Of a stretch of DNA of 31,613 bases, positions 251-10,976 are shown piece after piece. The stretch is taken from positions 1 through 31,613 of IMG/VR virus record IMGVR_UViG_3300009027_000018; one strand, given 5' to 3'. The position numbers were made by a program, and so were the translations under genes. This DNA is from a virus. Under the pieces are notes generated by a model. It saw only the letters and a list, made by a program, of their open reading frames with translations, was not told the DNA's origin and searched no databases. Numbering within the stretch: the first letter of the stretch is position 1; every line of letters starts with the position of its first letter.

Positions 251-313
251 CCCCCCATTGGTGGGGTCCGGCCGGCCTGGCCGAACGTAAGTCCTTATAT
301 ACCAACGACTTAC
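251..313. repeat. Intergenic 63-bp element, copy 1
   Basis: Parts in + order: a CCCC/GGGG hairpin (253-266), an exact GGCCGGCC at 270-277, then a dyad with arms GTAAGTC (287-293) and GACTTAC (307-313), a perfect inverted repeat offset by 20 bp. The right arm supplies the TAA stop of the gene at 310-534. No T-run follows the GC hairpin on either strand, so it is not a textbook terminator. Confidence 0.85.
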
Positions 314-534
314 ACCCAGCCCTCAGCCTCCATCACTTCAACAGATGGAATAACCATAGTATCTCCATCAGCACTAATATATCCACGAAAGCCACGCTCG
401 TCAATATAAAAATACTCGTCCAGGGTATCGTTTTCATTACACTCCCACAATACTGTTCTACAAGCATCGAACACGCTTTGACTAGTTGAGTATATCAGTT
501 GTAGACTGCCAGATTGAATATAGTATTTAGCCAT
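310..534 (-). CDS. Small acidic hypothetical phage protein (74 aa)
   Basis: Last gene of the 1415-to-310 unit. Two in-frame ATGs are possible, at 540 and 534. GGAGG lies only 3 nt before the first and 9 nt before the second, so the start at 534 (MAKYYIQSGSLQ...) is preferred. The start overlaps the TAA stop of the zinc-ribbon gene, suggesting coupled translation. The protein is acidic, with aromatic segments (DEYFYIDERGFRGYI), no clear membrane span and no recognised domain. Its stop codon lies inside the dyad of element copy 1. Function unknown. Confidence 0.75.
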   Translation of the reverse strand: MAKYYIQSGSLQLIYSTSQSVFDACRTVLWECNENDTLDEYFYIDERGFRGYISADGDTMVIPSVEVMEAEGWV

Positions 535-697
535 CGACATTCACCTCCGTCCAGCCGTATAACATATCCCGGTCACACTCAACACACACTGGTGTACCAT
601 TCTGTTCATACCAATCGGGCGTGATGCCAACTTTGTCATGACAATCTTCACACTCCCAGTATGATATAACATTCTCGTCTTTGACTACTTTGAACAT
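527..697 (-). CDS. Small zinc-ribbon-like protein (56 aa)
   Basis: The ATG at 695-697 is preceded by GAGGAG at good spacing. The frame extends further upstream, but that would run into the preceding gene and lacks a ribosome binding site. Two CxxC pairs (CEDC at 16-19 and CVEC at 38-41) suggest a single bound zinc, as in many small phage zinc-ribbon proteins. It follows the 708-1415 gene by about 10 nt and overlaps the next gene at its 3' end. Role unknown; metal binding is an inference from the Cys spacing. Confidence 0.8.
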   Translation of the reverse strand: MFKVVKDENVISYWECEDCHDKVGITPDWYEQNGTPVCVECDRDMLYGWTEVNVDG

Positions 698-707
698 AGT
701 AAACTCC

Positions 708-1415
708 TCAGTGTGATGGAAACAGTACGTTACCCAGGCCCTTGACGCACAAATTGCAGGCGACACTATTCTTGGTTGGGGTGCAGGTCACAACACCACG
801 ACCACGACGAATCTCAGGGCAGGTGACATACTTCTCGTTGTCGATGACAACCAACTTGGGCAGACTGTCACGCCACTGTTGAGCCTTGACTTTGCCACGC
901 GGACGCTTGGTGGCAATCTTCTGGTCACTGTCACACCATGCGAATAGTTTGAAACCGACCGCTTTGGCATCGAGAACGTCCTGAGCGTTGTGAACACTAG
1001 CATAGACGGCCATATACTTGTCCAGACTAACCAACCGACTATCGTAGATATGAGTGTAGAACCACATATCGGGCAGACTACCGCCATCGGCAAGAATACT
1101 CTCACACGCCCAGACTACGTTATCGACATAATCAGTGTCGAGTTTACCATCGAGGAACCAGTCACCACGCTCATGCCAGCGGATAGACTTGCCTTTACGT
1201 TCTGCGTCAATAATCATCGAGCGAATACGCCCGCGTTCCGTGATGACATTTTGCATACCAGCAGGACGCACACCGGGGTATATCTTCTCAGTTTGCTCGG
1301 CATAGCAGCCGTTGCCAAGGAACGCACAAGTAGGCGGGCAAGTATCGCCAACGGGGCGACTCACGACGATGCAGTTTTCCTTGCCTAGTTTATCGTTGCC
1401 GTTTGCTGTTTTCAT
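708..1415 (-). CDS. Cys-rich phage protein, resembling GP88/Gp37-type families
   Basis: First and largest gene of its unit (235 aa), starting at an ATG preceded by GGAGAA in a leader containing CCACGGAGAA, which recurs before other genes here. Near residues 23-40 it has GDTCPPTCAFLGNGCYAE; later CPEIRRGRG and a C-terminal CNLC. The CPPTC...CYAE signature with a C-terminal Cys cluster resembles phage proteins I know as GP88, Gp37/Gp68 or DUF7227-like. The exact family cannot be settled without a search. The Cys groups may bind metal or an iron-sulfur cluster, but no activity can be assigned. Confidence 0.85.
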   Translation of the reverse strand: MKTANGNDKLGKENCIVVSRPVGDTCPPTCAFLGNGCYAEQTEKIYPGVRPAGMQNVITERGRIRSMIIDAERKGKSIRWHERGDWFLDGKLDTDYVDNVVWACESILADGGSLPDMWFYTHIYDSRLVSLDKYMAVYASVHNAQDVLDAKAVGFKLFAWCDSDQKIATKRPRGKVKAQQWRDSLPKLVVIDNEKYVTCPEIRRGRGVVTCTPTKNSVACNLCVKGLGNVLFPSH

Positions 1416-1442
1416 GATATTGTTCTCCGTGGTTGTCTCTCC

Positions 1443-1470
1443 AGTATATCATATTATCGTCAGTCGTCAA
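1443..1470 (-). promoter_or_regulatory. Sigma-70-type promoter for the 1415-to-310 unit
   Basis: Minus strand: TTGACG, 16-bp spacer containing CGATA, TATACT. The leader to the ATG at 1415 is about 20 nt and includes GGAGAA. Confidence 0.75.
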
Positions 1471-1501
1471 GTAAAAAATCCAAAAAAAATAAAAATAATT
1501 T

Positions 1502-1518
1502 TTGGCACAGTATTTGCT
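1502..1518 (+). promoter_or_regulatory. Candidate sigma-54 (RpoN) promoter, + strand
   Basis: TTGGCACAGTATTTGCT has GG and GC exactly 10 bp apart and matches the RpoN consensus TTGGCAC(G)-N4-TTGCT at all but one position. Expected start is near 1529, just before element copy 2, so a transcript would carry the element and run antisense to the small minus-strand genes to its right. No + strand gene is seen downstream. Confidence 0.6.
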
Positions 1519-1531
1519 ATTGACCCTTATA

Positions 1532-1594
1532 CCCCCCAGAATGGTGGCCCGGCCCGCCTGTTAGAATGTAAGTCCTTTAGATACAACAACTTAC
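1532..1594. repeat. Intergenic 63-bp element, copy 2
   Basis: C6 run with a weak GG partner (1532-1547), a GGCCCGGCCC core in place of GGCCGGCC, and dyad arms GTAAGTC (1568-1574) and AACTTAC (1588-1594), again 20 bp apart. The dyad overlaps the 3' end of the 40-aa membrane ORF at 1577-1699. Confidence 0.75.
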
Positions 1595-1699
1595 AATTAG
1601 GGCAATCATATTTAAAACAAACCACATAAACATACAAACATTATCCATAGCACTTCTTTCTGTATAAAGGGTTAGAATACATACACCTAGACCCCTCAT
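1577..1699 (-). CDS. Putative small membrane protein (40 aa)
   Basis: An ATG at 1697-1699 opens a 40-codon frame starting MRGLGVCILT and ending in a hydrophobic, Cys-containing segment (about residues 21-40, VCMFMWFVLNMIALIVSCCI) that could span a membrane. The last codons and the TAA stop lie inside the dyad of element copy 2. It follows the 1738-1935 gene by 38 nt. No strong ribosome binding site is visible. Two other short operon-end frames with a membrane span (4936-5058, 6331-6420) make it more believable. Function unknown. Confidence 0.45.
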   Translation of the reverse strand: MRGLGVCILTLYTERSAMDNVCMFMWFVLNMIALIVSCCI

Positions 1700-1737
1700 T
1701 TTCGCTGACTATATCCAATTTAGCCAAACCTAAAGGT

Positions 1738-1935
1738 TTAGGTGTGACTATAAGATATTACCTTACCCTCTGGAACTAGTCCCACAAGATAAAGTTTTTC
1801 TAGCATTATGTTTTTTCCAAAATTACTTTCTGCTATCTTATGAGCAGTCCATTCACTTTGATGCTTGACATATCCCAGAGTGTGATGGTTTTGAATCACG
1901 GCCCAGGTGTATTCCAGAGGCTTGTTTGTATTCAT
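1738..1935 (-). CDS. Hypothetical protein (65 aa), possibly from a leaderless mRNA
   Basis: The most likely start is the ATG at 1933-1935 (MNTNKPLEYTWAVIQNHHTL...). Longer versions would have to start upstream of the promoter itself. The -10 box TATAAT ends 7 nt before the ATG, so the mRNA would begin at or next to the start codon and no ribosome binding site would be transcribed. The protein has a mixed composition with no recognised domain. Function unknown. Confidence 0.7.
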   Translation of the reverse strand: MNTNKPLEYTWAVIQNHHTLGYVKHQSEWTAHKIAESNFGKNIMLEKLYLVGLVPEGKVISYSHT

Positions 1936-1942
1936 GTTTCGC

Positions 1943-1970
1943 ATTATACCATATATCGGCATGGTGTCAA
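1943..1970 (-). promoter_or_regulatory. Sigma-70-type promoter abutting the 1935 start codon
   Basis: Minus strand: TTGACA, 16-bp spacer containing CGATA, TATAAT, a near-perfect consensus. The predicted start is about position 1936, effectively the A of the ATG. Confidence 0.75.
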
Positions 1971-1997
1971 TAGAAAATCCAGAAAAAATGCCAACCA

Positions 1998-2057
1998 CCC
2001 ATTAGAGGGACCCGGCCGGCCGAGCCGCACCTAAGTCCTTGGCTAGCAAAGACTTAG
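1998..2057. repeat. Intergenic element, copy 3 (60 bp)
   Basis: CCC/GGG hairpin (1998-2009), exact GGCCGGCC at 2014-2021, and a perfect dyad CTAAGTC (2031-2037)/GACTTAG (2051-2057). The first base of the left arm and last base of the right arm are C/G here but G/C in copy 1, a compensatory change that preserves symmetry. It follows the gene ending at 2090. Confidence 0.85.
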
Positions 2058-2089
2058 GGCGGTTCACGGCACACACCACGGAAAGAGAG

Positions 2090-2473
2090 TTATGCTACCA
2101 CACTGCCAAACAATGGCTTGCGGCAATTCTTGACACGCTCACAGTAGAACTGTCGGATATTACCGTCTACAGTCTTGCAAGTTACAAGGTGATTGGTGCG
2201 TTGGAACACCGGATCGTTGCGACGATAGTTACTTCTAGCGTTCATGCTAGCAATAGTTTTATCATCAAGACGGATGGGACTTTCAATAACCCTTGCGAGA
2301 ACACGCTTAGGGTCGCCATGCAGTGGCTGCATATACTCGAAGTTATAAACTTCACCAGTCTTTGCGTTGCACAGTTCAGCACGACTACCGCCATAGACGG
2401 CATAGACACCGAACATCACAAGAGCAATAGCACCAACCCCAACAATACCAGCCATCATCATTACGTTTTCCAT
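2090..2473 (-). CDS. Single-span membrane protein (127 aa), unknown function
   Basis: The ATG is preceded by AGGAG. Residues about 7-27 (MAGIVGVGAIALVMFGVYAV) form a strong N-terminal membrane segment or signal anchor, followed by a mostly polar, basic domain with Cys at about 35, 99, 110 and 117. It is transcribed alone from the promoter at 2513-2541 and ends just before element copy 3. The topology suggests a small periplasmic or cytoplasmic domain tethered to the inner membrane. No family recognised. Confidence 0.85.
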   Translation of the reverse strand: MENVMMMAGIVGVGAIALVMFGVYAVYGGSRAELCNAKTGEVYNFEYMQPLHGDPKRVLARVIESPIRLDDKTIASMNARSNYRRNDPVFQRTNHLVTCKTVDGNIRQFYCERVKNCRKPLFGSVVA

Positions 2474-2512
2474 TGTAAAAAACTCCTAAAGTGTGAAACC
2501 AAACCTAAAACC

Positions 2513-2541
2513 ATTCTACCATAAGGGAAGACACATGTCAA
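2513..2541 (-). promoter_or_regulatory. Sigma-70-type promoter for the 2473 gene
   Basis: Minus strand: TTGACA, 17-bp spacer, TAGAAT. The -35 box contains the TGA stop codon (2538-2540) of the upstream gene. The same stop/-35 fusion occurs at 8498. Confidence 0.75.
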
Positions 2542-2840
2542 CCCCCAACTAGCATATTATCCTCAAACGGCGTACCGTCAGCAAGGAACCACTCAAAATT
2601 CTTTTGGAAAATCTTGACTGGGCTATACTTGTTGATTCGTTGCTTGGTGGTGCTTGTTCGCCACCCACCGCTATTGAGTTGAACCATACCATTCTGGTAA
2701 AATCGCACAACCTTGGTTCCGTGCAGTTCAACAGAAACGCTACCGTCACGCTCAATATAGGCGTATGTATTGTTTCCAATCTTACGCTGTCCACGGTTAC
2801 GCTCACCAAGAACCATCTGTGTTGCTTCAACGTGTGTCAT
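2538..2840 (-). CDS. Conserved-looking small phage protein (100 aa)
   Basis: The ATG has GGAGAC upstream and the gene is the only one of its unit. The central motif KIGNNTYAYIERDGSVSVEL with LHGTKVVRFYQNG and WRTSTTKQRIN reads like a compact beta-rich domain that I have seen in hypothetical phage proteins, without a known function. It ends Gly-Gly with its TGA inside the -35 box of the next promoter. Soluble; no signal peptide. Confidence 0.85.
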   Translation of the reverse strand: MTHVEATQMVLGERNRGQRKIGNNTYAYIERDGSVSVELHGTKVVRFYQNGMVQLNSGGWRTSTTKQRINKYSPVKIFQKNFEWFLADGTPFEDNMLVGG

Positions 2841-2883
2841 CTTTTGTCTCCGTGTGGTTGCTTTCCCTACTAACTATATCGAC

Positions 2884-2912
2884 ATTCTACCATCCAAACT
2901 TTAGCCTGTCAA
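2884..2912 (-). promoter_or_regulatory. Sigma-70-type promoter (class with GTCGATATA after the -10)
   Basis: Minus strand: TTGACA, 17-bp spacer, TAGAAT, followed directly by GTCGATATA. The promoters at 7528 and 8689 share this layout, and 6176 nearly so. It drives the 2840 gene. Confidence 0.8.
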
Positions 2913-2937
2913 GCAAAAAAAGAAAAAAATTTTGCCA

Positions 2938-3001
2938 CCCCCTCAATAGTGGGGCCCGGCCGGCCTGCTTGTTCGTAACTCCTTTATTCCCAACCATTTA
3001 T
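2938..3001. repeat. Intergenic 64-bp element, copy 4 (degenerate dyad)
   Basis: CCCC/GGGG hairpin, exact GGCCGGCC at 2958-2965, and decayed arms GTAACTC (2975-2981) and CATTTAT (2995-3001) that keep the 20-bp offset. The 3' end and stop of the nuclease-like gene lie inside the dyad, which may explain its drift. Confidence 0.7.
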
Positions 3002-3568
3002 AGCCCATAGAAAATTCTCCTTAGTTAGATTCCTAAAGATTTCGATACCGTGTTCATTACGATTCTTTCCATGCTTACTATAAGAAATACTATAGCCCGG
3101 CTTTTTGCCTGTCTCAATATATGTATAGTGCTTTGATGCCCAATCACAAAGTTTGCTTGTATTACCAACCCTAGCCTGTATACCGTCTGGCCGAATAAAC
3201 ACAATCACCGTCACATCACTTTTGTGTGGCTGAATACCCTGAAAAGCATAATCCTTGCCCTTAGTCTTAGGACGAGAACCCTTGCATTCTACACTGATAA
3301 TCTCATCATCCATTTTGATCTGAACATAAATATCACCAGTTTCCCTACTATTACCAATAGCAGCCTCAAACCCTGCATCAATCAACCATTCATAAATAAT
3401 CCATTCAACCTTACGCCCACCCTCTGAACTTCCGGTACGCATCATATCAATAGACTCTGGACTTGTAAAACCGTCAAGCCTATCGGCATACTCTGCATCA
3501 AAGTTAGCCTTAGCCCTCTGAAAGATACGCTGGTTGATAAAGCCTTCGTTTTGCGTGGCGGTCAGCAT
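2984..3568 (-). CDS. Putative PD-(D/E)XK-type nuclease (194 aa)
   Basis: Start set at the ATG at 3566-3568, preceded by TTTTGGAG; a TTG at 3580 in the same frame lacks a ribosome binding site. The central segment RETGDIYVQIKMDDEIISVE followed by CKGSRP has the acidic-residue, strand, ExK pattern of the restriction-endonuclease-like fold (D of GD, then VECKG). The upstream GGRKVEWIIYEWLIDAG helix fits this fold. No specific family is recognised. It could be a restriction- or recombination-type nuclease, or a resolvase. It is transcribed alone and its end overlaps element copy 4. Confidence 0.75.
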   Translation of the reverse strand: MLTATQNEGFINQRIFQRAKANFDAEYADRLDGFTSPESIDMMRTGSSEGGRKVEWIIYEWLIDAGFEAAIGNSRETGDIYVQIKMDDEIISVECKGSRPKTKGKDYAFQGIQPHKSDVTVIVFIRPDGIQARVGNTSKLCDWASKHYTYIETGKKPGYSISYSKHGKNRNEHGIEIFRNLTKENFLWAINGWE

Positions 3569-3601
3569 GATTTTCTCCAAAAGTGGTGAGTTGTTTGTAC
3601 C

Positions 3602-3630
3602 AGTATAATAATATTATCGGTATTTGTCAA
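3602..3630 (-). promoter_or_regulatory. Sigma-70-type promoter for the nuclease-like gene
   Basis: Minus strand: TTGACA, 17-bp spacer with CGATA, TATACT. The leader before the ATG at 3568 is about 30 nt. Confidence 0.75.
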
Positions 3631-3649
3631 CTGTTTTTTGAGAAAAAAT

Positions 3650-3712
3650 CTAAGTCATTGAAAAATATAGACTTAGGCACGATTCGTGCGGCCGGGCCCC
3701 CCGATTAGGGGG
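3650..3712. repeat. Intergenic 63-bp element, copy 5 (inverted orientation)
   Basis: Same parts in reverse order: perfect dyad CTAAGTC (3650-3656)/GACTTAG (3670-3676), then a hairpin GCACG-ATT-CGTGC, a GGCCGGGC core and a C6/G5 hairpin (3697-3712). Overall length equals that of the forward copies, indicating a discrete invertible unit. Confidence 0.85.
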
Positions 3713-3732
3713 AGAACCCGGCAACTGTAGCA

Positions 3733-3939
3733 TTACTTTCGATCAACCCTATCACTATCGTAAGGATAATTCCAGCCGTAAATGCTAGACTCATAATGTA
3801 TATAGTCTTTTTCTGTCGCTCCGTCATCTTCTCGCTCATATTCGCTCTCCTTAGCGTTTAGAGTTTGATTCAAGTACCAGCACAACAGTGTACCAGCAGC
3901 ATATCCTATCGCCAAACTAGCAGGGTCTAGTTGAATCAT
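3733..3939 (-). CDS. Small membrane-anchored acidic protein (68 aa)
   Basis: Last recognised gene of a four-gene unit. Its ATG overlaps the previous stop (TAATG) and is preceded by GAGGAGG. Residues 8-25 (SLAIGYAAGTLLCWYLNQ) look like one membrane span; the rest is highly charged (ESEYEREDDGATEKDY). Function unknown. Confidence 0.75.
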   Translation of the reverse strand: MIQLDPASLAIGYAAGTLLCWYLNQTLNAKESEYEREDDGATEKDYIHYESSIYGWNYPYDSDRVDRK

Positions 3940-4130
3940 TATAGTACCTCCTCATAACTAAAACTATCAACCTCACCCACAATATTTTCCAATGCTCCAG
4001 ATATTGCAACAAGGTTCTCTTGTCGATCAACCGCTTCGCTCAGGTCAATATCATCTACAAACACTGTGCAGTTGAAATATTTGACATCTGTGTTTACCGT
4101 TGTTATATCATAGCAGTTATATTGTCTCAT
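3939..4130 (-). CDS. Hypothetical protein (63 aa)
   Basis: Start and stop are both shared with neighbours (TGATG upstream, TAATG downstream), the signature of translational coupling in a phage early operon. The sequence is acidic (VDDIDLSEAVDRQENL) with no recognised motif. The evidence for a real gene is the overlap pattern and GAGAGG upstream of the ATG. Confidence 0.7.
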   Translation of the reverse strand: MRQYNCYDITTVNTDVKYFNCTVFVDDIDLSEAVDRQENLVAISGALENIVGEVDSFSYEEVL

Positions 4131-4345
4131 CAGTCATCCTCTCCATAGTAACCATAGTCCTCATCGGTTCCGAATCCTGCATCACGCATGGCCGAATCAA
4201 AATCCCCATCCATGCCATCATTGTAATAATCATCCTCGTGGTAATCGTACACTCCTTCCATCATCTCGTCACAATAACCTTCAACGTCAACAAGTCCGTC
4301 AATTTCATCATAGTCCGAATTGTAAATATTCTTTCCGGGTGTCAT
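4130..4345 (-). CDS. Extremely acidic Asp/Tyr-rich protein (71 aa)
   Basis: About one third of residues are Asp or Glu, with many Tyr and Gly (e.g. DYHEDDYYNDGMDGDFD and DEDYGYYGEDD). TGATG overlaps on both sides and AGGAGG before the ATG support translation. Such composition is typical of DNA-mimic or nucleic-acid-mimicking inhibitors, but also of merely low-complexity phage proteins. No assignment is justified beyond strong acidity. Confidence 0.75.
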   Translation of the reverse strand: MTPGKNIYNSDYDEIDGLVDVEGYCDEMMEGVYDYHEDDYYNDGMDGDFDSAMRDAGFGTDEDYGYYGEDD

Positions 4346-4500
4346 CAGTAAGCCTCCTCAGTGTTCCAAACTTCATCAAACAAGTCTACTCCGACTACAT
4401 CCATCCAGTCAAGAGGGTGTGAGCCAATATCTTCGCAAGGTTCAACGATTCCTTCAGCCTCAAGAGCAGCAATCAGTAGCGTGGCGTTAATATCGTCCAT
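4345..4500 (-). CDS. Hypothetical acidic protein (51 aa), first gene of its unit
   Basis: The start is placed at the ATG at 4498-4500 (MDDINATLLIAALEAEG...), which follows GGAGAA at proper spacing. A longer version starting at 4530 would begin at the predicted transcription start and has no transcribed binding site. The leader CAACCACGGAGAA is shared with the 1415 gene. Helical, acidic, unknown function. The stop overlaps the next ATG (TGATG). Confidence 0.7.
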   Translation of the reverse strand: MDDINATLLIAALEAEGIVEPCEDIGSHPLDWMDVVGVDLFDEVWNTEEAY

Positions 4501-4536
4501 TCTTGATTCTCCGTGGTTGTTGCGTGTCATGCTCGA

Positions 4537-4564
4537 ATTATACTCCTTAGATCGTCCAAGTCAA
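4537..4564 (-). promoter_or_regulatory. Sigma-70-type promoter for the 4500-to-3733 operon
   Basis: Minus strand: TTGACT, 16-bp spacer with CGAT, TATAAT. The start site is predicted near 4530. Confidence 0.7.
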
Positions 4565-4567
4565 CCC

Positions 4568-4729
4568 CTAATCTTGAGTTTTTTCTAAAATTGTGTCCAG
4601 ATAAATTTCGTTCTGCGTAAGCACATAGCCATACTCACATTGGGGGGTATAAACCCCAAAATAAACCTTGCCGTTATCGTATCCTTCAAAACCAACGAAC
4701 ATTCCAAAAATCGTGTAGAGCGTCATCAT
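4568..4729 (-). CDS. Hypothetical protein (53 aa)
   Basis: A short frame beginning MMTLYTIFGMFVGFEGYDNG, with GGAG 8 nt before the ATG inside the CCACGGAGAA leader used by neighbouring genes. It ends TAG just before the -35 box of the next promoter (TAGGGGTTGACT). Aromatic and Gly-rich, soluble, no family recognised. The second ATG (4726) is an equally possible start. Confidence 0.7.
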   Translation of the reverse strand: MMTLYTIFGMFVGFEGYDNGKVYFGVYTPQCEYGYVLTQNEIYLDTILEKTQD

Positions 4730-4775
4730 CTTTCATTCTCCGTGGGTTATTCTTGCCAATACTTTATATATCGAC

Positions 4776-4804
4776 AATCCACCCCAGATACTTTACAGAA
4801 AAAC
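4776..4804 (-). promoter_or_regulatory. Possible degenerate promoter for the 4729 gene
   Basis: By alignment with the 2884-type promoters, TAAAGTATCTGGGGTGGATT is followed by GTCGATATA, so the class signature is kept. The -10 would be TGGATT and no good -35 is visible. It may need an activator or be inactive. Confidence 0.25.
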
Positions 4805-4838
4805 AAAAATTTTTGCTGACTTTCGCTGGCTTTACCAT

Positions 4839-4862
4839 CTAAGCCTTAGCCTGACGGCTTAG
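4839..4862. repeat. Extra inverted repeat CTAAGCC/GGCTTAG next to element copy 6
   Basis: Arms CTAAGCC (4839-4845) and GGCTTAG (4856-4862) form a perfect 7-bp dyad with a 10-nt centre. It resembles the CTAAGTC/GACTTAG arms of copies 3 and 5 with one base changed symmetrically, but the arm offset is 17 bp rather than 20. Confidence 0.6.
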
Positions 4863-4880
4863 GTAATACAAGGTAGTCAA

Positions 4881-4943
4881 CCCCCCAACCGAGGGGCCCG
4901 GCCGCCCTCGCCGCTCGTAAGTCCTTTATTTTCAACTACTTAC
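4881..4943. repeat. Intergenic 63-bp element, copy 6
   Basis: C6/GGGG hairpin (4881-4896), GGCCGCCC core, arms GTAAGTC (4917-4923) and TACTTAC (4937-4943). The dyad encodes the last residues and TAG stop of the 40-aa membrane ORF. Confidence 0.8.
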
Positions 4944-5058
4944 GTTTACCACTGAACACTAGCCTAGCAAACATTACCATAAAAACAATATGATAACATA
5001 CGGCCAGTATCCAACCATATTCATCAAGCCAAGGCCCCTCATCAATCAACGGTCTCAT
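4936..5058 (-). CDS. Putative small membrane protein (40 aa)
   Basis: The ATG at 5056-5058 follows GAGG at good spacing, inside the end of the preceding 44-aa gene. The peptide starts MRPLIDEGPWLDEYG, has a hydrophobic stretch at about 15-35 (including WILAVCYHIVFMVMF) and ends in basic SGKRK. Acidic N-terminus, one span and basic C-terminus make a convincing mini-membrane protein. The KRK-stop part lies in the dyad of element copy 6. A 22-codon hydrophobic frame (4974-5042) overlaps it and is the less likely reading. Confidence 0.5.
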   Translation of the reverse strand: MRPLIDEGPWLDEYGWILAVCYHIVFMVMFARLVFSGKRK

Positions 5059-5176
5059 ACTCATCCTCATCAACTACATACCAATCCCAACCCTCATCAT
5101 CTATACCATACCATGCTTCTAGTTCATCCCAAGCATCATGGTATCCATCCTCATACCCTTCATCATACTCAGTCAT
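5042..5176 (-). CDS. Very acidic Trp/Tyr-rich mini-protein (44 aa)
   Basis: The ATG overlaps the stop of the upstream gene by 8 bp (ATGACTGA). The peptide MTEYDEGYEDGYHDAWDELE continues with further Trp, Asp and Glu residues. It resembles the acidic small proteins of the 4130-4345 type. The coupled overlap and codon structure argue for a real gene. Function unknown. Confidence 0.6.
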   Translation of the reverse strand: MTEYDEGYEDGYHDAWDELEAWYGIDDEGWDWYVVDEDEYETVD

Positions 5177-5405
5177 TCACAACCTCTCTTGTAAAACATG
5201 CGTCGTCAACTTCGTATCGATCAATACCAGTATCATTCCATGCTACATGGTCAGGAGTTTCAATTGAACCCAACTCCCGCATAGTTTCAATAAACTCGCT
5301 ATAACTAGCACAATCGCTAGCGATATTATAGAGTCCTTGGTCGTTTTTGATCCAGAGGACAACATTCCATGTTGCGTAATTACTGTAACCGTTGTAGCCA
5401 CTCAT
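5169..5405 (-). CDS. YNG-NYATWNV-type conserved phage protein (78 aa)
   Basis: The N-terminus SGYNGYSNYATWNVVLWIKN with NDQGLY matches a widespread small phage family (NGW-x-Y-x-TWNVxLWL), which I believe is catalogued as DUF7249; the name is from memory. Start taken at the second ATG, spaced correctly from GGAGAATGAAA; the first ATG (5411) abuts the binding site. The upstream stop TGA overlaps the site. Function not known for the family. Confidence 0.85.
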   Translation of the reverse strand: MSGYNGYSNYATWNVVLWIKNDQGLYNIASDCASYSEFIETMRELGSIETPDHVAWNDTGIDRYEVDDACFTREVVND

Positions 5406-5407
5406 TT

Positions 5408-5668
5408 TCATTCTCCGTAGGCTGATTCGATCTTCTCACCACTATCACAGCAATAGAGGTTTTCATCTTCCCAGTTTACTTCACAGGCAACCGCCTGCCA
5501 ACCGTCAGTTCGTTTGTGCTTCACAGAATGCAAAACCAAACGGAAGTTTTCTTGTACAGCGTCGAAACTCATGGCCTCGCCGTCGTTCATTACAAAATAC
5601 TTCGGGTATCCTCCGGGCCAAGCGTATCGGCCTGAGCGAACATAGTTTTTCAATTCTTGCGTTGTCAT
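5408..5668 (-). CDS. Conserved small phage protein, SGRYAWPGGYP motif (86 aa)
   Basis: The N-terminus MTTQELKNYVRSGRYAWPGG followed by YPKYFVMNDGEAMSFDAV is characteristic of a small protein found in many phage early regions. It also has a Cys pair near the C-terminus (LYCCDSGEKIESAYGE). AGGGGG precedes the ATG. The function is unknown; the Cys pair and short length suggest a small adaptor or inhibitor, but that is speculation. Confidence 0.85.
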   Translation of the reverse strand: MTTQELKNYVRSGRYAWPGGYPKYFVMNDGEAMSFDAVQENFRLVLHSVKHKRTDGWQAVACEVNWEDENLYCCDSGEKIESAYGE

Positions 5669-5680
5669 ATTACAATCCCC

Positions 5681-5830
5681 CTAAACATAGTACCAAACCG
5701 CAAAACCGGCATCAATCAACCATTGCCACTCTGTCGTGACAGGGAAACAAGTTCCATTACTAATCACTCGCTCGTCACCACTGAGCGGATCACGAATCCG
5801 AATTTCATAAATAGTCTGTATACAAGCCAT
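5681..5830 (-). CDS. Hypothetical protein (49 aa)
   Basis: The ATG is preceded by GGAGAG and the gene fits tightly between its neighbours (12 nt and 11 nt). The peptide begins MACIQTIYEIRIRDPLSGDE and ends WLIDAGFAVWYYV. Likely a short beta-rich soluble protein. No family recognised. Confidence 0.7.
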   Translation of the reverse strand: MACIQTIYEIRIRDPLSGDERVISNGTCFPVTTEWQWLIDAGFAVWYYV

Positions 5831-5841
5831 TTCAATCTCTC

Positions 5842-6147
5842 CTATTCTGGCAACCTTCCTTCAACAATTCCACCGTGCAGATCCAACTCATGCCGAACCA
5901 GATGAACAGGAACATACGGATATACCGTGTCGGTGTATTCTTCATCCTTTGGATAACCCTTGCCAAATTGGGCGGCTTCCGAGAATTCCCGGAATCTCCA
6001 ACTTTTTGGAACCTCGCTAGGGTATCCACACTCTACATGCGAGTATGGGCCGTGGTCGCTTCGTGGTGTGCAGTATGCAGTCTCACGGGCCTGAACACTG
6101 ATTGAGAAGCCGTCGCGGCAAATGATTCGTGGGTTGTGTGCTTTCAT
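5842..6147 (-). CDS. Conserved small phage protein, RDGFSxSVQA/YCxPR type (101 aa)
   Basis: First gene of a six-gene unit, with AAGGAGA before the ATG. Signature parts are IICRDGFSISVQARETAYC, PRSDHGPYSHVECGYPSE and a C-terminal TVYPYVPVHLVRHELDLHGG. I recognise this arrangement from many hypothetical proteins of tailed phages. The paired Cys/Pro/Arg motif is conserved but has no assigned activity that I know of. Confidence 0.85.
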   Translation of the reverse strand: MKAHNPRIICRDGFSISVQARETAYCTPRSDHGPYSHVECGYPSEVPKSWRFREFSEAAQFGKGYPKDEEYTDTVYPYVPVHLVRHELDLHGGIVEGRLPE

Positions 6148-6175
6148 TTTTGTTCTCCTTACTTTCTATATCGGA

Positions 6176-6203
6176 ATTCTACCACAGCAAACTTGAATGT
6201 CAA
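6176..6203 (-). promoter_or_regulatory. Sigma-70-type promoter for the 6147-to-4936 operon
   Basis: Minus strand: TTGACA, 16-bp spacer, TAGAAT, followed by TCCGATATAG, a variant of the GTCGATATA signature. Confidence 0.8.
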
Positions 6204-6234
6204 GAGAAAAATCTAGAAAAAATTATTTTCTTTT

Positions 6235-6251
6235 TTGGCACAGCATTTGCT
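6235..6251 (+). promoter_or_regulatory. Candidate sigma-54 promoter, + strand
   Basis: TTGGCACAGCATTTGCT, GG-N10-GC. The predicted start (about 6262) falls on the left arm of element copy 7, so a transcript would begin with the dyad and GC hairpin and then run antisense to the 6331-6420 and 6417-6647 genes. Confidence 0.6.
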
Positions 6252-6259
6252 CTGCGATC

Positions 6260-6323
6260 GTAAGTCGTTGGGGCGTAAGGACTTATGGCCGACTCGGCCG
6301 GCCGGGCCCCACCAAAGAGGGGG
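6260..6323. repeat. Intergenic 64-bp element, copy 7 (inverted orientation)
   Basis: The dyad comes first: GTAAGTC (6260-6266)/GACTTAT (6280-6286). Then an exact GGCCGGCC (6296-6303) and a CCCC/GGGG hairpin (6307-6323) whose loop ACCAAAGA is the same as in copy 12. Together with copy 5 it shows that the unit occurs in both orientations. Confidence 0.85.
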
Positions 6324-6330
6324 CTATTCC

Positions 6331-6420
6331 TTACACCAATCTTTCTATAAATATTACCACAACACACACCATAAGAAAGAGCATAACAGCCAGGCCGTCA
6401 TTGTTAAGTTTACTTTTCAT
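6331..6420 (-). CDS. Putative 29-aa single-span membrane peptide
   Basis: An ATGA overlap with the upstream gene, a GGAG (GGAGAATAGAA) before the ATG like those of neighbouring genes, and the peptide MKSKLNNDGLAVMLFL continuing MVCVVVIFIERLV: a basic N-terminus followed by one hydrophobic span. It is the last gene of its unit and stops 8 nt before element copy 7. Function unknown; small size and location resemble the other operon-end membrane peptides. Confidence 0.6.
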   Translation of the reverse strand: MKSKLNNDGLAVMLFLMVCVVVIFIERLV

Positions 6421-6647
6421 TTTCTATTCTCCGAAAGAACTTCAAACCAGTTTGTTCCATTCTTACCTGTCAAACTTTTTTCAATCTTTCCAGCCAAACA
6501 GGCTAATGCTATTCCCCCAAACTGTTCTGAGTATTCCGTACCTATATTAGTATTCCTTGCTATATCTAATAGTTTTTCTTTTTGTTTTTTTGTTAGCATA
6601 GAAATCATTGCTTCTTCAAAATTATTATAGCCTGTTTTCATTTTCAT
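6417..6647 (-). CDS. Hypothetical protein (76 aa)
   Basis: Start at the ATG at 6645-6647 behind GGAGCAAGA; the open frame extends much further upstream but overlaps the zinc-ribbon gene. The protein (MKMKTGYNNFEEAMISML...) is helical and Lys-rich with a hydrophobic segment EQFGGIALACLAGKIEKSL. It overlaps the 3' end of the previous gene by 23 bp and the next gene by 4 bp. Unknown function. Confidence 0.7.
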   Translation of the reverse strand: MKMKTGYNNFEEAMISMLTKKQKEKLLDIARNTNIGTEYSEQFGGIALACLAGKIEKSLTGKNGTNWFEVLSENRK

Positions 6648-6825
6648 TCTTGCTCCATTTCCTAAGCCGTTCAGCACGACGCTGTTGGGCAAAACTAACA
6701 ATTCGTTCTTCGCTACGATCAAACACCACGGTGCAGTGTTCGCCACACTTTGGGCAAATTTCGTGGTCAATTTGTGAGCCACTCATTGGCTCGTTGCAAC
6801 AGTCGCTTTGAATCATCATTCCCAT
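6625..6825 (-). CDS. Zinc-ribbon protein (66 aa), CC...CPKCGEHC type
   Basis: The motif DCCNEPMSG...CPKCGEHC gives two Cys pairs, a treble-clef or zinc-ribbon pattern common in small phage proteins. The C-terminus is basic (QQRRAERLRKWSKNENENR), which could contact nucleic acid. The start at 6825 is spaced properly from GGAGAATGAAA; 6831 is an alternative directly abutting the site. It is a likely paralogue of the 8498-8644 gene (DCCG...CNDCGEHC). Confidence 0.8.
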   Translation of the reverse strand: MGMMIQSDCCNEPMSGSQIDHEICPKCGEHCTVVFDRSEERIVSFAQQRRAERLRKWSKNENENRL

Positions 6826-6827
6826 TT

Positions 6828-7004
6828 TCATTCTCCATCTTGCCAATAAACATTGCACCAAACACCAAACAACTTGAAGGCTTTATACCTTGCAGCCTTC
6901 TCTGTACTAGCGTACACGTTGCCAAGATACTCATCTTTCTTGTAGCATTCAAAATAACCGCCAGCATAGCGACGATAGGTACTGAACATTTGATACTTAC
7001 TCAT
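6828..7004 (-). CDS. Hypothetical basic protein (58 aa)
   Basis: The ATG at 7002-7004 follows a GAGAGAGAG purine tract; a GTG nine bases upstream is less likely. MSKYQMFSTYRRYAGGYFEC and the continuing YKKDEYLGNVYASTEKAARY read like a compact DNA- or RNA-binding fold, aromatic and basic. Its stop overlaps the next gene's binding site. No family assigned. Confidence 0.7.
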   Translation of the reverse strand: MSKYQMFSTYRRYAGGYFECYKKDEYLGNVYASTEKAARYKAFKLFGVWCNVYWQDGE

Positions 7005-7025
7005 CTCTTTCACTCTCTCTCTTAC

Positions 7026-7226
7026 TTACTTACTAGCACTCATCCAATAGTAAACTTCGTTTGCAACACGCTGTCGAGTTGCTTTGGTAATGGATACATA
7101 ATCCATTTTACGATCGTACAGTGAATAGGAACCGTCGTGGTGTTTGACGATTTCGCAATCCATCTTTCTAGCATACTGTACCAGATTCTTCTCAACGGTC
7201 TTGAAACTAGGCTTTCTCATTCTCAT
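7026..7226 (-). CDS. Hypothetical basic protein (66 aa)
   Basis: First gene of its unit. An upstream ATG at 7245-7247 overlaps the -10 box (TATAATG), so it would lie before the transcription start. The ATG at 7224-7226 behind AAGAAAGAGAGA is chosen. MRMRKPSFKTVEKNLVQYAR with KMDCEIVKHHDGSYSLYDRK suggests an alpha-beta fold; function unknown. Confidence 0.7.
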   Translation of the reverse strand: MRMRKPSFKTVEKNLVQYARKMDCEIVKHHDGSYSLYDRKMDYVSITKATRQRVANEVYYWMSASK

Positions 7227-7245
7227 TCTCTCTTTCTTTTCAGAC

Positions 7246-7273
7246 ATTATACCAAAGATTTTCTGTTTGTCAA
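7246..7273 (-). promoter_or_regulatory. Sigma-70-type promoter for the 7226-to-6331 operon
   Basis: Minus strand: TTGACA, 16-bp spacer, TATAAT. The -35 box abuts the C4/G5 hairpin that follows the upstream gene. Confidence 0.8.
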
Positions 7274-7288
7274 CCCCGCCGCTGGGGG
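7274..7288. repeat. Short C/G hairpin (element hairpin without the dyad)
   Basis: CCCC-GCCGCT-GGGGG lies between the stop of the 7290-7487 gene and the next promoter, in the place where other units have the full element. No T-run, so terminator function is uncertain. Confidence 0.5.
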
Positions 7289-7289
7289 A

Positions 7290-7487
7290 TCACTCCCAAT
7301 TATTTTCTCGATAGCGTTGAACACTCTTGGCAGCGTGGATGCCATTGAGAACCGACAGCATCTCTTCGGTTCGGCGATAGTTTGGCAGTTTGTGTTCTGC
7401 TACTTCAATCCACACTGAGAGCATTTCATTGCTCATCTTGTGGAATTGCTCTTGAAGACTGTTGTATTGTGCTTGTAGCGTTGTCAT
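7290..7487 (-). CDS. Small helical protein (65 aa), paralogue of 8270-8449
   Basis: The block LSVWIEVAEHKLPNYRRTEE is nearly identical to LSVWVEVAEHKLPNYTRIEE of the 8270-8449 product, so the two genes are duplicates. A purine-rich GAGAGAAAGAAAGAGAG tract precedes the ATG. It is predicted to be an amphipathic helical protein of unknown function, transcribed alone from 7528-7556. Confidence 0.8.
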   Translation of the reverse strand: MTTLQAQYNSLQEQFHKMSNEMLSVWIEVAEHKLPNYRRTEEMLSVLNGIHAAKSVQRYRENNWE

Positions 7488-7527
7488 TTTTTTCTCTCTT
7501 TCTTTCTCTCTTACTTCTTATATCGAC

Positions 7528-7556
7528 ATTCTACCATACGAAACTTGAATTGTCAA
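7528..7556 (-). promoter_or_regulatory. Sigma-70-type promoter with GTCGATATA
   Basis: Minus strand: TTGACA, 17-bp spacer, TAGAAT, then GTCGATATA. It drives the single gene 7290-7487. Confidence 0.8.
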
Positions 7557-7576
7557 GAGATTTTTCTGCATTTTTA

Positions 7577-7594
7577 TGTCAAGAAAATTTGACA
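7577..7594. promoter_or_regulatory. Palindrome TGTCAA-N6-TTGACA upstream of a sigma-54 site
   Basis: Part of a 35-bp stretch (7571-7605) repeated identically at 8732-8766. The centre is about 37 bp before the -24 GG of the sigma-54 element, the same as in the second copy. It could be an operator or activator site. The two halves also look like facing -35 boxes, but no -10 fits. Confidence 0.5.
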
Positions 7595-7619
7595 AAACTT
7601 TCTGGTATTTTGTGTGCTT

Positions 7620-7636
7620 TTGGCACGGCATTTGCT
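7620..7636 (+). promoter_or_regulatory. Candidate sigma-54 promoter, + strand (perfect consensus)
   Basis: TTGGCACGGCATTTGCT matches TTGGCACG-N4-TTGCT completely. The predicted start near 7647 lies inside the GC hairpin of element copy 9. Transcription would continue antisense to 7726-7962. Confidence 0.65.
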
Positions 7637-7640
7637 AATA

Positions 7641-7703
7641 CCCCTCGCAAGTGGGGTTCGGCCGGCCGGGCAGGCCGTAAGTCCTTACGTAGCAACAACT
7701 TAC
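7641..7703. repeat. Intergenic 63-bp element, copy 9
   Basis: CCCC/GGGG hairpin (7641-7656), exact GGCCGGCC (7660-7667), arms GTAAGTC (7677-7683) and AACTTAC (7697-7703). Confidence 0.85.
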
Positions 7704-7725
7704 GAACGCCCACCCTAATGAGGGA

Positions 7726-7962
7726 TCAACTCCACCCTGTACCACCCCTGATCGCCCGTTCAGTTTCCCAAGCGTATTCCTTCTCCAGCCAGTCGGCATG
7801 GCGAAGTCGTCGCAGCCTCTCACGAACGGCAGAGCGTACCATATGGGCCACCAGCCTATACTTTGCTGGGGTGTACGTTTGAGCATTATCGCTCAAGTCT
7901 TTCCCGCCTTCCCGGATCCAAGCGTCAAGTTCTCGCGTTGTCATTTTTTCGTAGGTTGTCAT
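7726..7962 (-). CDS. Hypothetical basic helical protein (78 aa)
   Basis: The ATG at 7960-7962 is correctly spaced from GGAGAATGATAG, which overlaps the upstream stop. MTTYEKMTTRELDAWIREGG with later RLVAHMVRSAVRERLRRLRH looks like a helical, Arg-rich soluble protein that may bind nucleic acid. An alternative frame across 7635-7886 is a shadow. No family recognised. Confidence 0.75.
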   Translation of the reverse strand: MTTYEKMTTRELDAWIREGGKDLSDNAQTYTPAKYRLVAHMVRSAVRERLRRLRHADWLEKEYAWETERAIRGGTGWS

Positions 7963-7966
7963 TCTA

Positions 7967-8257
7967 TCATTCTCCAAAGGGTGACGATTCGCTTTCACTC
8001 AGTCTAGCATATTGGGCAGCCAACGCAACCACTCTTTCGGGGGAGCCAGGCTTTCCTACCTTTTCAATCATGTGGTCATTCCCGCCCACCAGTCTCTTAT
8101 CGACCGACCGACGGTTAGCCTTTACAATTTTTCTCAATTCTTTTCGATTGAACTTGTGAACCGTTCCGTTCTGCTCAACACCTTTCCAGATTAGGGTACA
8201 CTGATTCCAAGCGTCAGTGAGAATCGGGTATTGTTGCATGAGTTTTTCAGTATTCAT
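7967..8257 (-). CDS. Hypothetical protein (96 aa)
   Basis: AGGAAA precedes the ATG, which sits 12 nt after the previous stop. The product (MNTEKLMQQYPILTDAWNQC...) has a basic middle (FNRKELRKIVKANRRSVDKR) and an acidic Ser-rich tail. It may be a small DNA-associated protein, but no domain is recognisable. Confidence 0.75.
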   Translation of the reverse strand: MNTEKLMQQYPILTDAWNQCTLIWKGVEQNGTVHKFNRKELRKIVKANRRSVDKRLVGGNDHMIEKVGKPGSPERVVALAAQYARLSESESSPFGE

Positions 8258-8269
8258 TCTTTCGGTTTC

Positions 8270-8449
8270 CTATCGGGTGGACAATACTTGACGGGCTACG
8301 ATTAGAGCGGCCTTTACGGTTTCGACCTCCTCGATCCTAGTATAGTTCGGCAGTTTATGTTCTGCAACCTCAACCCATACCGAAAGAAGATCGGTTGTCA
8401 TGGTGTTGAAATACTTGCGGTAGTCGTTCATACTTGGGTAAATCGTCAT
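8270..8449 (-). CDS. Small helical protein (59 aa), paralogue of 7290-7487
   Basis: Shares the LSVWVEVAEHKLPNY core with the 7290-7487 product. First gene of a three-gene unit, AAGGAG before the ATG. The two paralogues keep the core but differ at both ends. Unknown function. Confidence 0.8.
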   Translation of the reverse strand: MTIYPSMNDYRKYFNTMTTDLLSVWVEVAEHKLPNYTRIEEVETVKAALIVARQVLSTR

Positions 8450-8473
8450 TTTGTTTTCTCCTTAGTTATCCAA

Positions 8474-8501
8474 AGTCTAGCAAATTTTTTTGTGTTGTCA
8501 A
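8474..8501 (-). promoter_or_regulatory. Sigma-70-type promoter for the 8449-to-7726 operon
   Basis: Minus strand: TTGACA, 16-bp spacer, TAGACT. The -35 box includes the TGA stop (8498-8500) of the upstream gene. Confidence 0.7.
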
Positions 8502-8644
8502 CCCCCACAAACGGGGGTAGCAGGATATTCTTCGGTCAGCACTTCACAATGCTCACCGCAATCGTTGCAGATACCATATTCGATATGGCAATCGTCAAGA
8601 TATGAACCGCAGCAATCTGAAATGTAGAGGATTTGCATTTCCAT
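8498..8644 (-). CDS. Zinc-ribbon protein (48 aa), DCCG...CNDCGEHC type
   Basis: Cys pairs DCCGSYLDDC and ICNDCGEHC indicate a zinc-binding mini-domain related to the 6625-6825 product. AAGGAG precedes the ATG by way of an A-rich spacer. The gene ends ...TPVCGG with its TGA inside the next -35 box, and the 16-bp C5/G5 hairpin (8502-8517) lies within its last codons. Confidence 0.75.
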   Translation of the reverse strand: MEMQILYISDCCGSYLDDCHIEYGICNDCGEHCEVLTEEYPATPVCGG

Positions 8645-8688
8645 TTTTATTTCTCCTTAGTTTTCTTTTCCTTATTCCTTATATCGAC

Positions 8689-8717
8689 ATTATACCAAAG
8701 CAATCTTTAGTCGTCAA
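8689..8717 (-). promoter_or_regulatory. Sigma-70-type promoter with GTCGATATA
   Basis: Minus strand: TTGACG, 17-bp spacer, TATAAT, GTCGATATA. It drives the 8644-to-8498 gene. Confidence 0.8.
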
Positions 8718-8737
8718 CAATAATTTTGGAATTTTTA

Positions 8738-8755
8738 TGTCAAGAAAATTTGACA
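8738..8755. promoter_or_regulatory. Palindrome TGTCAA-N6-TTGACA, second copy
   Basis: Identical to 7577-7594 and placed the same distance (about 37 bp) before the next sigma-54 -24 GG. It lies in the repeated 35-bp block 8732-8766. Confidence 0.5.
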
Positions 8756-8780
8756 AAACTTTCTGGCATTTTGCTCTCGT

Positions 8781-8797
8781 TTGGCACAGCGTTTGCT
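8781..8797 (+). promoter_or_regulatory. Candidate sigma-54 promoter, + strand
   Basis: TTGGCACAGCGTTTGCT, GG-N10-GC. Expected start near 8808, just before element copy 11; the transcript would run antisense to 8926-9117. Confidence 0.6.
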
Positions 8798-8814
8798 AGT
8801 GGAACACTTGTACA

Positions 8815-8878
8815 CCCCCACCACAGAGGGGGCCGGCCGGTCGAATCGCTTGTAAGTCTTTATTTACCAAGCACTTAC
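8815..8878. repeat. Intergenic 64-bp element, copy 11
   Basis: C5/G5 hairpin (8815-8832), exact GGCCGGCC (8831-8838), arms GTAAGTC (8852-8858) and CACTTAC (8872-8878). Confidence 0.85.
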
Positions 8879-8925
8879 CTTTGGCTAGCAATTCTTTTGG
8901 GGGATAGATCTACTCCAATATGGGG

Positions 8926-9117
8926 TCAAGCATATTCTCGATTCAGTTCGTTCTGCCAAAAGCGGACCAAGAGTGGATCTTGTGAAACCTTAGCAGGAAA
9001 GGTATCTGCTGATTGAACAGCAAGAACTTGATTGTTCTGCGAAAGAAAGATTCGCATCTTATTGAGGATAGTGTACCGAACGCCGTTTGCTTCGAAGTAG
9101 GGGATGAGCTTTTTCAT
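8926..9117 (-). CDS. Hypothetical protein (63 aa)
   Basis: Single-gene unit from the 9159-9186 promoter with AAGGAAAA before the ATG. The product (MKKLIPYFEANGVRYTILNK...) continues as a small beta-rich domain. No family recognised. Confidence 0.75.
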   Translation of the reverse strand: MKKLIPYFEANGVRYTILNKMRIFLSQNNQVLAVQSADTFPAKVSQDPLLVRFWQNELNREYA

Positions 9118-9158
9118 GTCTTTTTCCTTTTCTTTCTTGGTTACTTGTTATGTCTCAA

Positions 9159-9186
9159 GTATATACCTAGTATCGTCAGGTGTCAA
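9159..9186 (-). promoter_or_regulatory. Sigma-70-type promoter for the 9117 gene
   Basis: Minus strand: TTGACA, 16-bp spacer with CGATA, TATACT. Confidence 0.75.
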
Positions 9187-9255
9187 GTACTTTCTGAAAA
9201 ATTTTTTTATTTTTTTCTAGTGCAAATATCATGCCAAAAGTTTTTTCTTTTATTA

Positions 9256-9318
9256 CCCCACCAAAGAGGGGGCCGGTCGGCAGACATACACGCAAGTCTA
9301 TATCTATCAATACCTTAC
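9256..9318. repeat. Intergenic 63-bp element, copy 12
   Basis: CCCC/GGGG hairpin with loop ACCAAAGA, GGCCGGTC core, weaker arms GCAAGTC (9292-9298) and ACCTTAC (9312-9318) at the standard offset. This is the last copy found; none is seen in the rightward late region. Confidence 0.75.
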
Positions 9319-9442
9319 ATATATACCTACCTACATAGGGGGGTTTTTTTGTTTTGCTTGGGTATGTGTTCGCTGCTCTGAAAAAGGGCGGGTGGTCCAA
9401 AAATAGTAAGCACTATCTATATAAAATGTAATACCTAAACTA
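9319..9442. other. Gene-poor end of the intergenic stretch 9118-9442
   Basis: Within the 325 bp without a gene are the promoter at 9159, element copy 12, and then this AT-rich stretch with GGGGGGTTTTTTT at about 9338-9350. No coding frame with a credible start is seen; a minus-strand frame across 9176-9400 would have to start at TTG and crosses the element. Confidence 0.4.
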
Positions 9443-10900: not shown

Positions 10901-10910
10901 CAACGCCCTT

Positions 10911-10938
10911 TTGTATAAAAATAGTGTATACCTATAAT
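10911..10938 (+). promoter_or_regulatory. Divergent promoter region for the Cys-rich operon
   Basis: On the + strand: TTGTAT, 16-bp spacer, TATAAT (continuing TATAATA, 10933-10939). The minus strand also offers a TATTAT -10 for the nuclease gene with a TTGTGG -35, so the two promoters overlap. Confidence 0.45.
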
Positions 10939-10976
10939 AGACAAAGCAGAACACAACCACAAACTACAGGCTTATT

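Follow-up and report, generated by a model that had tools for sequence, protein, structure and literature searches.

The viral DNA considered here is a stretch of 31,613 nucleotides (IMG/VR record IMGVR_UViG_3300009027_000018), called the window below at its full length of 31.6 kilobases (kb), which is a partial sequence from a lineage of large phages, with relatives reaching 224 kb. Its early region carries ten copies of an intergenic element, which probably serve as promoter-linked operators or upstream activating sites for a putative dimeric regulator (probability of about 0.62). This reading rests on sequence comparison, in which four features stand out: conserved arms, the independent variation of these arms, linkage to sigma-70 promoters and, in relatives, a preferred helical phase and orientation of the element to the promoter.

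Each element comprises a C/G hairpin, a GC core and a dyad of 27 base pairs (bp). All ten copies listed in a previous sequence-only reading of this DNA are present at the places given there, with a mean column identity of 76% in the alignment. Their length is nearly constant, as claimed, but amounts to 61–65 bp rather than 60–64 bp; the arms are 20 bp apart in every copy, again as claimed. Element 1 (251–313, plus strand) is made up of the C/G hairpin (251–266), the GC core with GGCCGGCC at 270 and the dyad (287–313). Also on the plus strand are element 2 (1532–1594, dyad 1568–1594), element 3 (1995–2057, dyad 2031–2057, with an outer C/G pair), element 4 (2938–3001, with a degenerate dyad at 2975–3001), element 6 (4881–4943, dyad 4917–4943), element 8 (7641–7703, dyad 7677–7703), element 9 (8815–8878, dyad 8852–8878) and element 10 (9256–9318, dyad 9292–9318), which is the most diverged copy and the first element of the early region. 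The copies at 3650 and 6260 are whole elements in inverted orientation: element 5 (3650–3712, minus strand, dyad 3650–3676) and element 7 (6260–6324, minus strand, dyad 6260–6286). The sequence GGCCGGCC is found exactly six times in the window, always within elements, which agrees with the earlier count.

The pattern GTAAGTC-N13-GACTTAC (up to 3 mismatches) matches the window 10 times, and nine of these matches are elements; shuffled sequence gave a mean of 1.33 and a maximum of 5 matches, so the excess over shuffles is confirmed. The remaining element (2938) falls outside this set, being more degenerate (TAACTC...CATTTA). All dyads with up to 2 mismatches are situated within 287–8878, that is, in the early region, and the late region of the window contains none at this threshold. 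The 20-bp offset is kept in relatives. Thus none of the outcomes named beforehand as fatal to the sequence-only reading (equal frequency in shuffled sequence, occurrence in the late region, loss of the offset in relatives) was observed.

Sigma-70 promoters, accepted at a score of at least 10/12, read away from nine of the ten elements in the window. All of them are on the minus strand: at 159–186 (element 1, 11/12), 1443–1470 (element 2, 10/12), 1943–1970 (element 3, 12/12), 2884–2912 (element 4, 11/12), 3602–3630 (element 5, 11/12), 6176–6203 (element 7, 11/12), 7528–7556 (element 8, 11/12), 8689–8717 (element 9, 11/12) and 9158–9186 (element 10, 11/12). No strong promoter was found within 200 bp of element 6. 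A near-identical 40-bp repeat, TTTTTATGTCAAGAAAATTTGACAAAACTTTCTGGYATTTTG, is located between element and promoter at 7576–7615 and 8735–8775.

The linkage holds in relatives, to which a scan of IMG/VR with the dyad alone contributed contigs. A loosened dyad occurs 502 times in their loci vs. 13 times in shuffled sequence. Within 100 bp of 338 distinct dyad clusters, 128 promoters (again at least 10/12) read away from the cluster vs. 23 expected, and 27 read toward it vs. 23 expected. For 146 clusters, an away-reading promoter was seen within 250 bp at a single side and none reading toward the cluster, and nine clusters have away-reading promoters on both sides. The stretch from the dyad to the −35 is A/T-rich (0.69). 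The cassette-like layout suggested earlier is borne out: an element, an A/T-rich stretch and an early promoter at each boundary between transcription units, in a region where genes are reshuffled from one relative to another.

The dyad has the consensus TAAGTSNTT-N7-AANSACTTA and is formed by GNCGTAAGTCNTT arms around a 7-bp spacer, the N before TT being mostly C or G. One arm usually carries CCTT and the other CGTT, and owing to this difference the dyad has a direction. Among exact dyads, C.C and G.G combinations, which have one arm of each kind, outnumber the paired ones by 77 to 38. Pairing between arms was examined in 245 partner dyads, for which the spacing from a strong dyad was the selection criterion. 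The arm positions 4/22, 5/21, 6/20, 7/19 and 8/18 were paired in 129, 156, 132, 98 and 197 dyads, the expectation for independent sides being 124.9, 156.3, 125.4, 89.5 and 197.0. Hence the inner arms do not covary and pair no more often than independent sides would; some excess of pairing is seen at position 10/16. The outer pair is a compensated C/G in 27 and an uncompensated C/C or G/G in 122 of the 548 distinct dyads. Maintenance of symmetry by paired changes, as proposed earlier, applies to copies 3 and 5 and fails in general. Since the arms vary independently, base pairing is not the property being conserved, and this supports protein half-sites rather than an RNA hairpin.

An RNA structure, namely an array of conserved stem-loops which protect or process messenger RNA ends, could be suggested by the C/G hairpin present in every window element and also beside two strong promoters lacking a dyad (7275–7289 and 8503–8518, abutting the −35 and without a T-run). 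The absence of covariation in the inner arms of the 245 dyads and the absence of any Rfam match in the window make this explanation very improbable, and for the dyad itself it is largely refuted. A cruciform of the dyad was rejected along with the RNA hairpin on the same covariation result. Of the original alternatives "protein-binding site, RNA structure, or both", the protein site is favored by the sequence-specific arms, which are kept in divergent phages, their independent variation and the orientation and phase in relatives, whereas the RNA structure of the dyad falls away.

For helical phase, the distance was taken between the first base of the −35 and the centre of the nearest dyad, with similar sequences removed by identity. 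In relatives these distances cluster at 33, 42–45, 53–56, 63–66 and 74–78 bp. After removal of sequences with at least 80% identity, phasing is strong (n = 93, R = 0.43, p = 3e-8), with 10.7 bp as the best of the periods scanned (7–14 bp); it persists at 70% (n = 56, p = 5e-4) and 65% identity (n = 36, p = 0.01). Neither of two controls shows the phasing: promoter look-alikes scoring 9/12 gave R = 0.02 (n = 94), and promoters directed at the dyad gave R = 0.20 (n = 26, p = 0.37). With loosely defined promoters and single-linkage clustering no phasing was seen, since a single cluster absorbed most of the data and the remainder were mostly weak promoters; the values above were obtained with stricter criteria. 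An unsupervised palindrome profile upstream of promoters was made uninformative by A-tracts. Orientation is also biased: read toward the promoter, the promoter-proximal dyad is C.C in 70 cases vs. G.G in 18 (35 loci vs. 14).

Relatives carry arrays of dyads, often as pairs, with spacing peaks at 42, 50 and 52–53 bp. The stretch between paired dyads is GC-rich, with a mean GC content of 0.82 vs. 0.39 as the average of the loci. The form seen in the window (one dyad, GC core and C/G palindrome) is a variant of this paired-dyad plan. In several relatives, a second palindrome, CCTTACGATATTGTAAGG or close variants, occupies the interval from a sigma-54-type motif (see below) to the sigma-70 promoter, downstream of the motif (L031 5932, L041 2826, L059 4846 and 5931).

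A relative of 224 kb with the same terminase family, G007, has few TAAGTC dyads. Instead, the 200 kb that were read contain 42 copies of a different palindrome, CTGCCANNNTGGCAG, when up to 2 mismatches are allowed. Among neighbouring copies, 18 pairs have a spacing of 29 bp and enclose GC-rich sequence. In 10 of 16 promoters, 30–33 bp separate the −35 from the centre of the near palindrome; the distance is 21 bp in one other case and 73 bp in another. The occurrence of another sequence at the same place relative to the promoter suggests that the specificity of the putative regulator differs between lineages.

From these features we infer dimer binding and action on the promoter. A putative dimeric DNA-binding protein would recognize two 13-bp half-sites, GNCGTAAGTCNTT and its inverse, with 7 bp between them; in the fullest form, one dimer would be bound on each side of the GC-rich core. 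Across the A/T-rich stretch, the protein, bound on a favored face of the helix, could act on the near-consensus early sigma-70 promoter that reads away from the element. This effect might in turn be exerted through the alpha subunit of RNA polymerase. Early genes may be tuned or shut off rather than activated, because their promoters are already near the consensus. The phage of the window would represent a variant of this scheme: most of its elements are turned round, with the C/G palindrome nearest the promoter and the dyad at the far end.

Several observations weigh against such an operator or activating site. A dyad is present within 200 bp upstream in only 92 of the 246 strong promoters of the dyad zones, and about half of the elements have no recognized promoter reading away. 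The distances in the window (33 bp between the dyad centre of element 5 and the −35 of its promoter at 3630, and 70, 74, 76, 111, 114, 119, 134 and 148 bp) are not significantly phased, nor are those in relatives after clustering at 60% identity (n = 17). After 53 bp, the most frequent pair spacing is 50 bp, which does not correspond to full helical turns. None of the phage protein families follows the distribution of the dyad, in the sense of being present in at least five dyad phages and absent from both the dyad-poor G006 and G007, and none of the early-gene products tested exceeded the cut-off of a DNA-binding family.

The main rival is a transcription insulator or roadblock, by which the element would end the upstream early transcript, either as a stoperator-like protein roadblock or as a factor-dependent terminator, and thereby separate small early operons. 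Elements do occupy the gap from a stop codon or tRNA end to the next promoter; in G008 a stop codon is about 20 bp or less from the start of several elements, and one element begins 7–8 bp past a tRNA-like gene. The early region has few canonical intrinsic terminators (12 vs. 9 expected), and convergent junctions outnumber divergent ones by 60 to 18, according to crude gene calls. However, the first early element of G009 (46457–46534) precedes the first early promoter and has no gene of the same direction upstream, its other side being occupied by a divergent transcription unit alone, and G019 resembles this case, with cruder gene calls. An intrinsic (rho-independent) terminator is not indicated either: base pairing is not conserved in the 245 dyads, whose arms show no pairing constraint, and no U-tract follows the stem in 9 of the 10 copies. 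The claimed absence of a T-run is correct for these nine and wrong for the copy at 3650, which is followed on the minus strand by ATTTTTTC. Neither helical phase nor orientation to the downstream promoter is needed by a terminator. Because these properties and the first element of G009 would be unexpected of a terminator, an operator or activating site is preferred and the insulator is considered unlikely.

Alternatively, the dyads could be core sites of a tyrosine recombinase, supplied by the host, which would flank exchangeable early modules in the manner of pdif modules. Two inverted arms around a variable 7-bp spacer agree with the 6–8 bp spacers of such sites, early gene order varies between relatives, and homology breakpoints lie within 10 bp of dyads in 12.7% of cases vs. 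5.7% at random. A scan of bacterial genomes for the dyad yielded 27 stretches, about half of them from Planctomycetota. Some of these stretches are multi-dyad phage-like contigs, and others carry a single dyad in the chromosome, next to a tyrosine recombinase gene or immediately past a tRNA 3′ end. In chromosomes of Planctomycetota such dyads follow the 3′ end of a tRNA by a few bp, or have a tyrosine recombinase gene no more than 350 bp away, or both, resembling attachment sites (L226 3842–3943, L221 2851–2952, L256 2756–2856, L254 5959–6060, L253 1640–1664). A tRNA-like phage gene in G008 (about 68720–68814), which ends 7–8 bp before a dyad pair, is reminiscent of these chromosomal cases.

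Site-specific recombination is nevertheless improbable. PF00589 was found in none of the 34 dyad-bearing contigs, and the best match of a custom profile had E = 0.3. The chromosomal integrase adjacent to a dyad has relatives mostly without dyads, the excess of breakpoints is weak with several gene swaps ending well away from dyads, and promoter phasing is left unexplained. A tyrosine-recombinase site was considered in phage contigs, in genomes of Planctomycetota and in relatives of the integrase and was rejected, since no phage recombinase was found and most integrase relatives lacked the dyad. A host repeat mimicked by the phage was rejected as well: exact dyads occur only rarely in Planctomycetota, in 7 of 294 genomes with the centre genome counted, and in the phylum of a Polynucleobacter genome (G050) they were absent from 298 genomes other than this centre genome.

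Sigma-54-type motifs adjoin dyads throughout the lineage. In the window, plus-strand motifs point into element 2 (TTGGCACAGTATTTGCT, 1502–1518), element 7 (TTGGCACAGCATTTGCT, 6235–6251), element 8 (TTGGCACGGCATTTGCT, 7620–7636) and element 9 (TTGGCACAGCGTTTGCT, 8781–8797), and a related minus-strand motif (TTGGCATGATATTTGCA, 9221–9237) is situated between element 10 and its promoter. The adjacent motif has the fixed spacing of sigma-54 promoters, TGGCAC-N5-TTGC. Within 120 bp of dyads, the density of the pattern TTGGCAC-N6-TGC is 33-fold that in the remaining sequence; 21 copies are near dyads, and other gaps from 3 to 9 give 0–1, so only the sigma-54 spacing is enriched. With the fuller consensus TTGGCACRNNNNTTGCW (up to 1 mismatch), 40 copies were found near dyads and 19 far from them (0.54/kb vs. 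0.021/kb, 26-fold). The motif is often 30–40 bp from the dyad, centre to centre.

The dyads could thus be enhancers or operators for these adjoining sigma-54-type promoters, switching transcription after the sigma-70 phase, which would be compatible with a promoter-linked operator. Besides the enrichment of TTGGCACRNNNNTTGCW near dyads, several dyad-distant copies are placed like true promoters before start codons: this set has TTGGCACRCCGATTGCW or a close sequence, a purine-rich leader and ATG (L031 4280, L038 2680, L063 3038). Yet the motif (up to 2 mismatches) accompanies only 46 of 278 dyad clusters, its −12 part varies to TTGAA in some phages, and it may be arranged as a 26-bp tandem triplicate or as inverted pairs (L194 3349–3424). 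RpoN was found in none of 20 phage contigs, and the sigma-54 activator family gave only short or marginal matches in 34 contigs; a phage-encoded activator or RpoN was accordingly dropped as having no convincing match. In the literature searched, no described phage parallel of these motifs was found. Such a sigma-54 unit is considered quite unlikely. A broader scheme, tentative and doubtful, is a two-step early switch in which sigma-70 would act first, followed by phased pairs of regulator dimers together with host sigma-54 polymerase at TTGGCAC-N5-TTGC. The operator palindrome would be swapped as a unit between sister lineages, giving a lineage-specific early-gene code.

Among known systems, the p4 sites of phi29 at A2c/A2b/A3 offer a parallel to a promoter-linked operator (PMC3100819). 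They follow the consensus CTTTTT-N15-AAAATG at four sites. Like the dyads, they are pairs of imperfect inverted repeats of about 27 bp with functionally different halves, placed between or upstream of promoters of the host polymerase; p4 is a phage-encoded dimer for which each repeat is an independent site, and it controls the early-to-late switch (PMC3100819). In contrast to phi29, the dyads have the consensus TAAGTSNTT-N7-AANSACTTA and a GC-rich core, which is lacking in phi29; no relative of p4 was encountered, no search having been aimed at one. The phasing in relatives is compatible with a p4-type contact with RNA polymerase, and its bearing goes no further. Operators and stoperators of Cluster A mycobacteriophages are likewise phage-specific sites in tens of copies, with a consensus shifting between relatives; however, they are asymmetric 13-bp sites in one orientation to transcription and mostly remote from promoters, whereas the dyads are promoter-linked and symmetric but for one base (PMC6550527).

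The promoter/early stem-loop (PeSL) cassettes of T4-like phages similarly join an early promoter to a palindrome where transcription units meet, within a region that is shuffled (PMC4503421). PeSLs are described as promoter-terminator motifs with a stem-loop (PMC4503421), unlike the dyad, which has no pairing constraint and is without a T-run in nine of ten copies. Hence promoter adjacency is shared with PeSL (128 vs. 23 in relatives, nine of ten elements in the window) and the stem-loop terminator part is missing. As to module shuffling, another PeSL trait, the observations are the weak breakpoint excess near dyads (12.7% vs. 5.7%) and the differing gene order. SPBRE of SPbeta are also repeated intergenic operators, bound by the phage-encoded regulator MrpR, which has a tyrosine-recombinase fold; their motif is 15 bp long and SPbeta is a temperate prophage (PMC10516654). 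Searches for tyrosine-recombinase relatives in the present phages with PF00589 and an integrase profile were negative, MrpR itself not being a query.

Members of this lineage were found in metagenomes only. A terminase identical to that of the window is encoded by two more IMG/VR contigs (113.8 and 48.4 kb), and at least 597 stretches encode terminase relatives according to one scan; identity to the terminases of cultured phages is only 21–30%. All dyad-bearing contigs fetched for gene comparison, including those found by the DNA pattern only, have the same terminase, an ERCC4-type nuclease and a sigma-70-region-2 protein. In the window, positions 1–9.4 kb contain short minus-strand genes (the early region), and the terminase and neighbouring genes are on the plus strand. 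The ERCC4 (XPF/Mus81-type) nuclease domain protein (21674–22150) is encoded directly upstream of the terminase in 11 of 11 dyad-bearing phages compared. The protein encoded at 19293–19943, kept in all members compared, has a weak match to sigma-70 region 2 and is possibly a late sigma factor. Between the early region and the late genes, a 505-codon frame (9443–10960) matches an HNH endonuclease. At the divergent early/late junction, CTTACTATNTTTGGACCACCC...AAAACAAAAAAACCCCC or parts of it are conserved (window about 9340–9420, minus strand; G008 about 57650–57720; L047 about 4265–4300), and this sequence may be a leader, an origin or a packaging feature.

If the proposed operators or activating sites are real, they would provide, from sequence alone, the early-gene regulatory grammar of a large and common phage lineage without close cultured relatives. 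The proposal predicts both a promoter regulator and a spacing rule. The sigma-54-type motifs near dyads, if true, would tie the timing of phage gene expression to the sigma-54 polymerase of the host.

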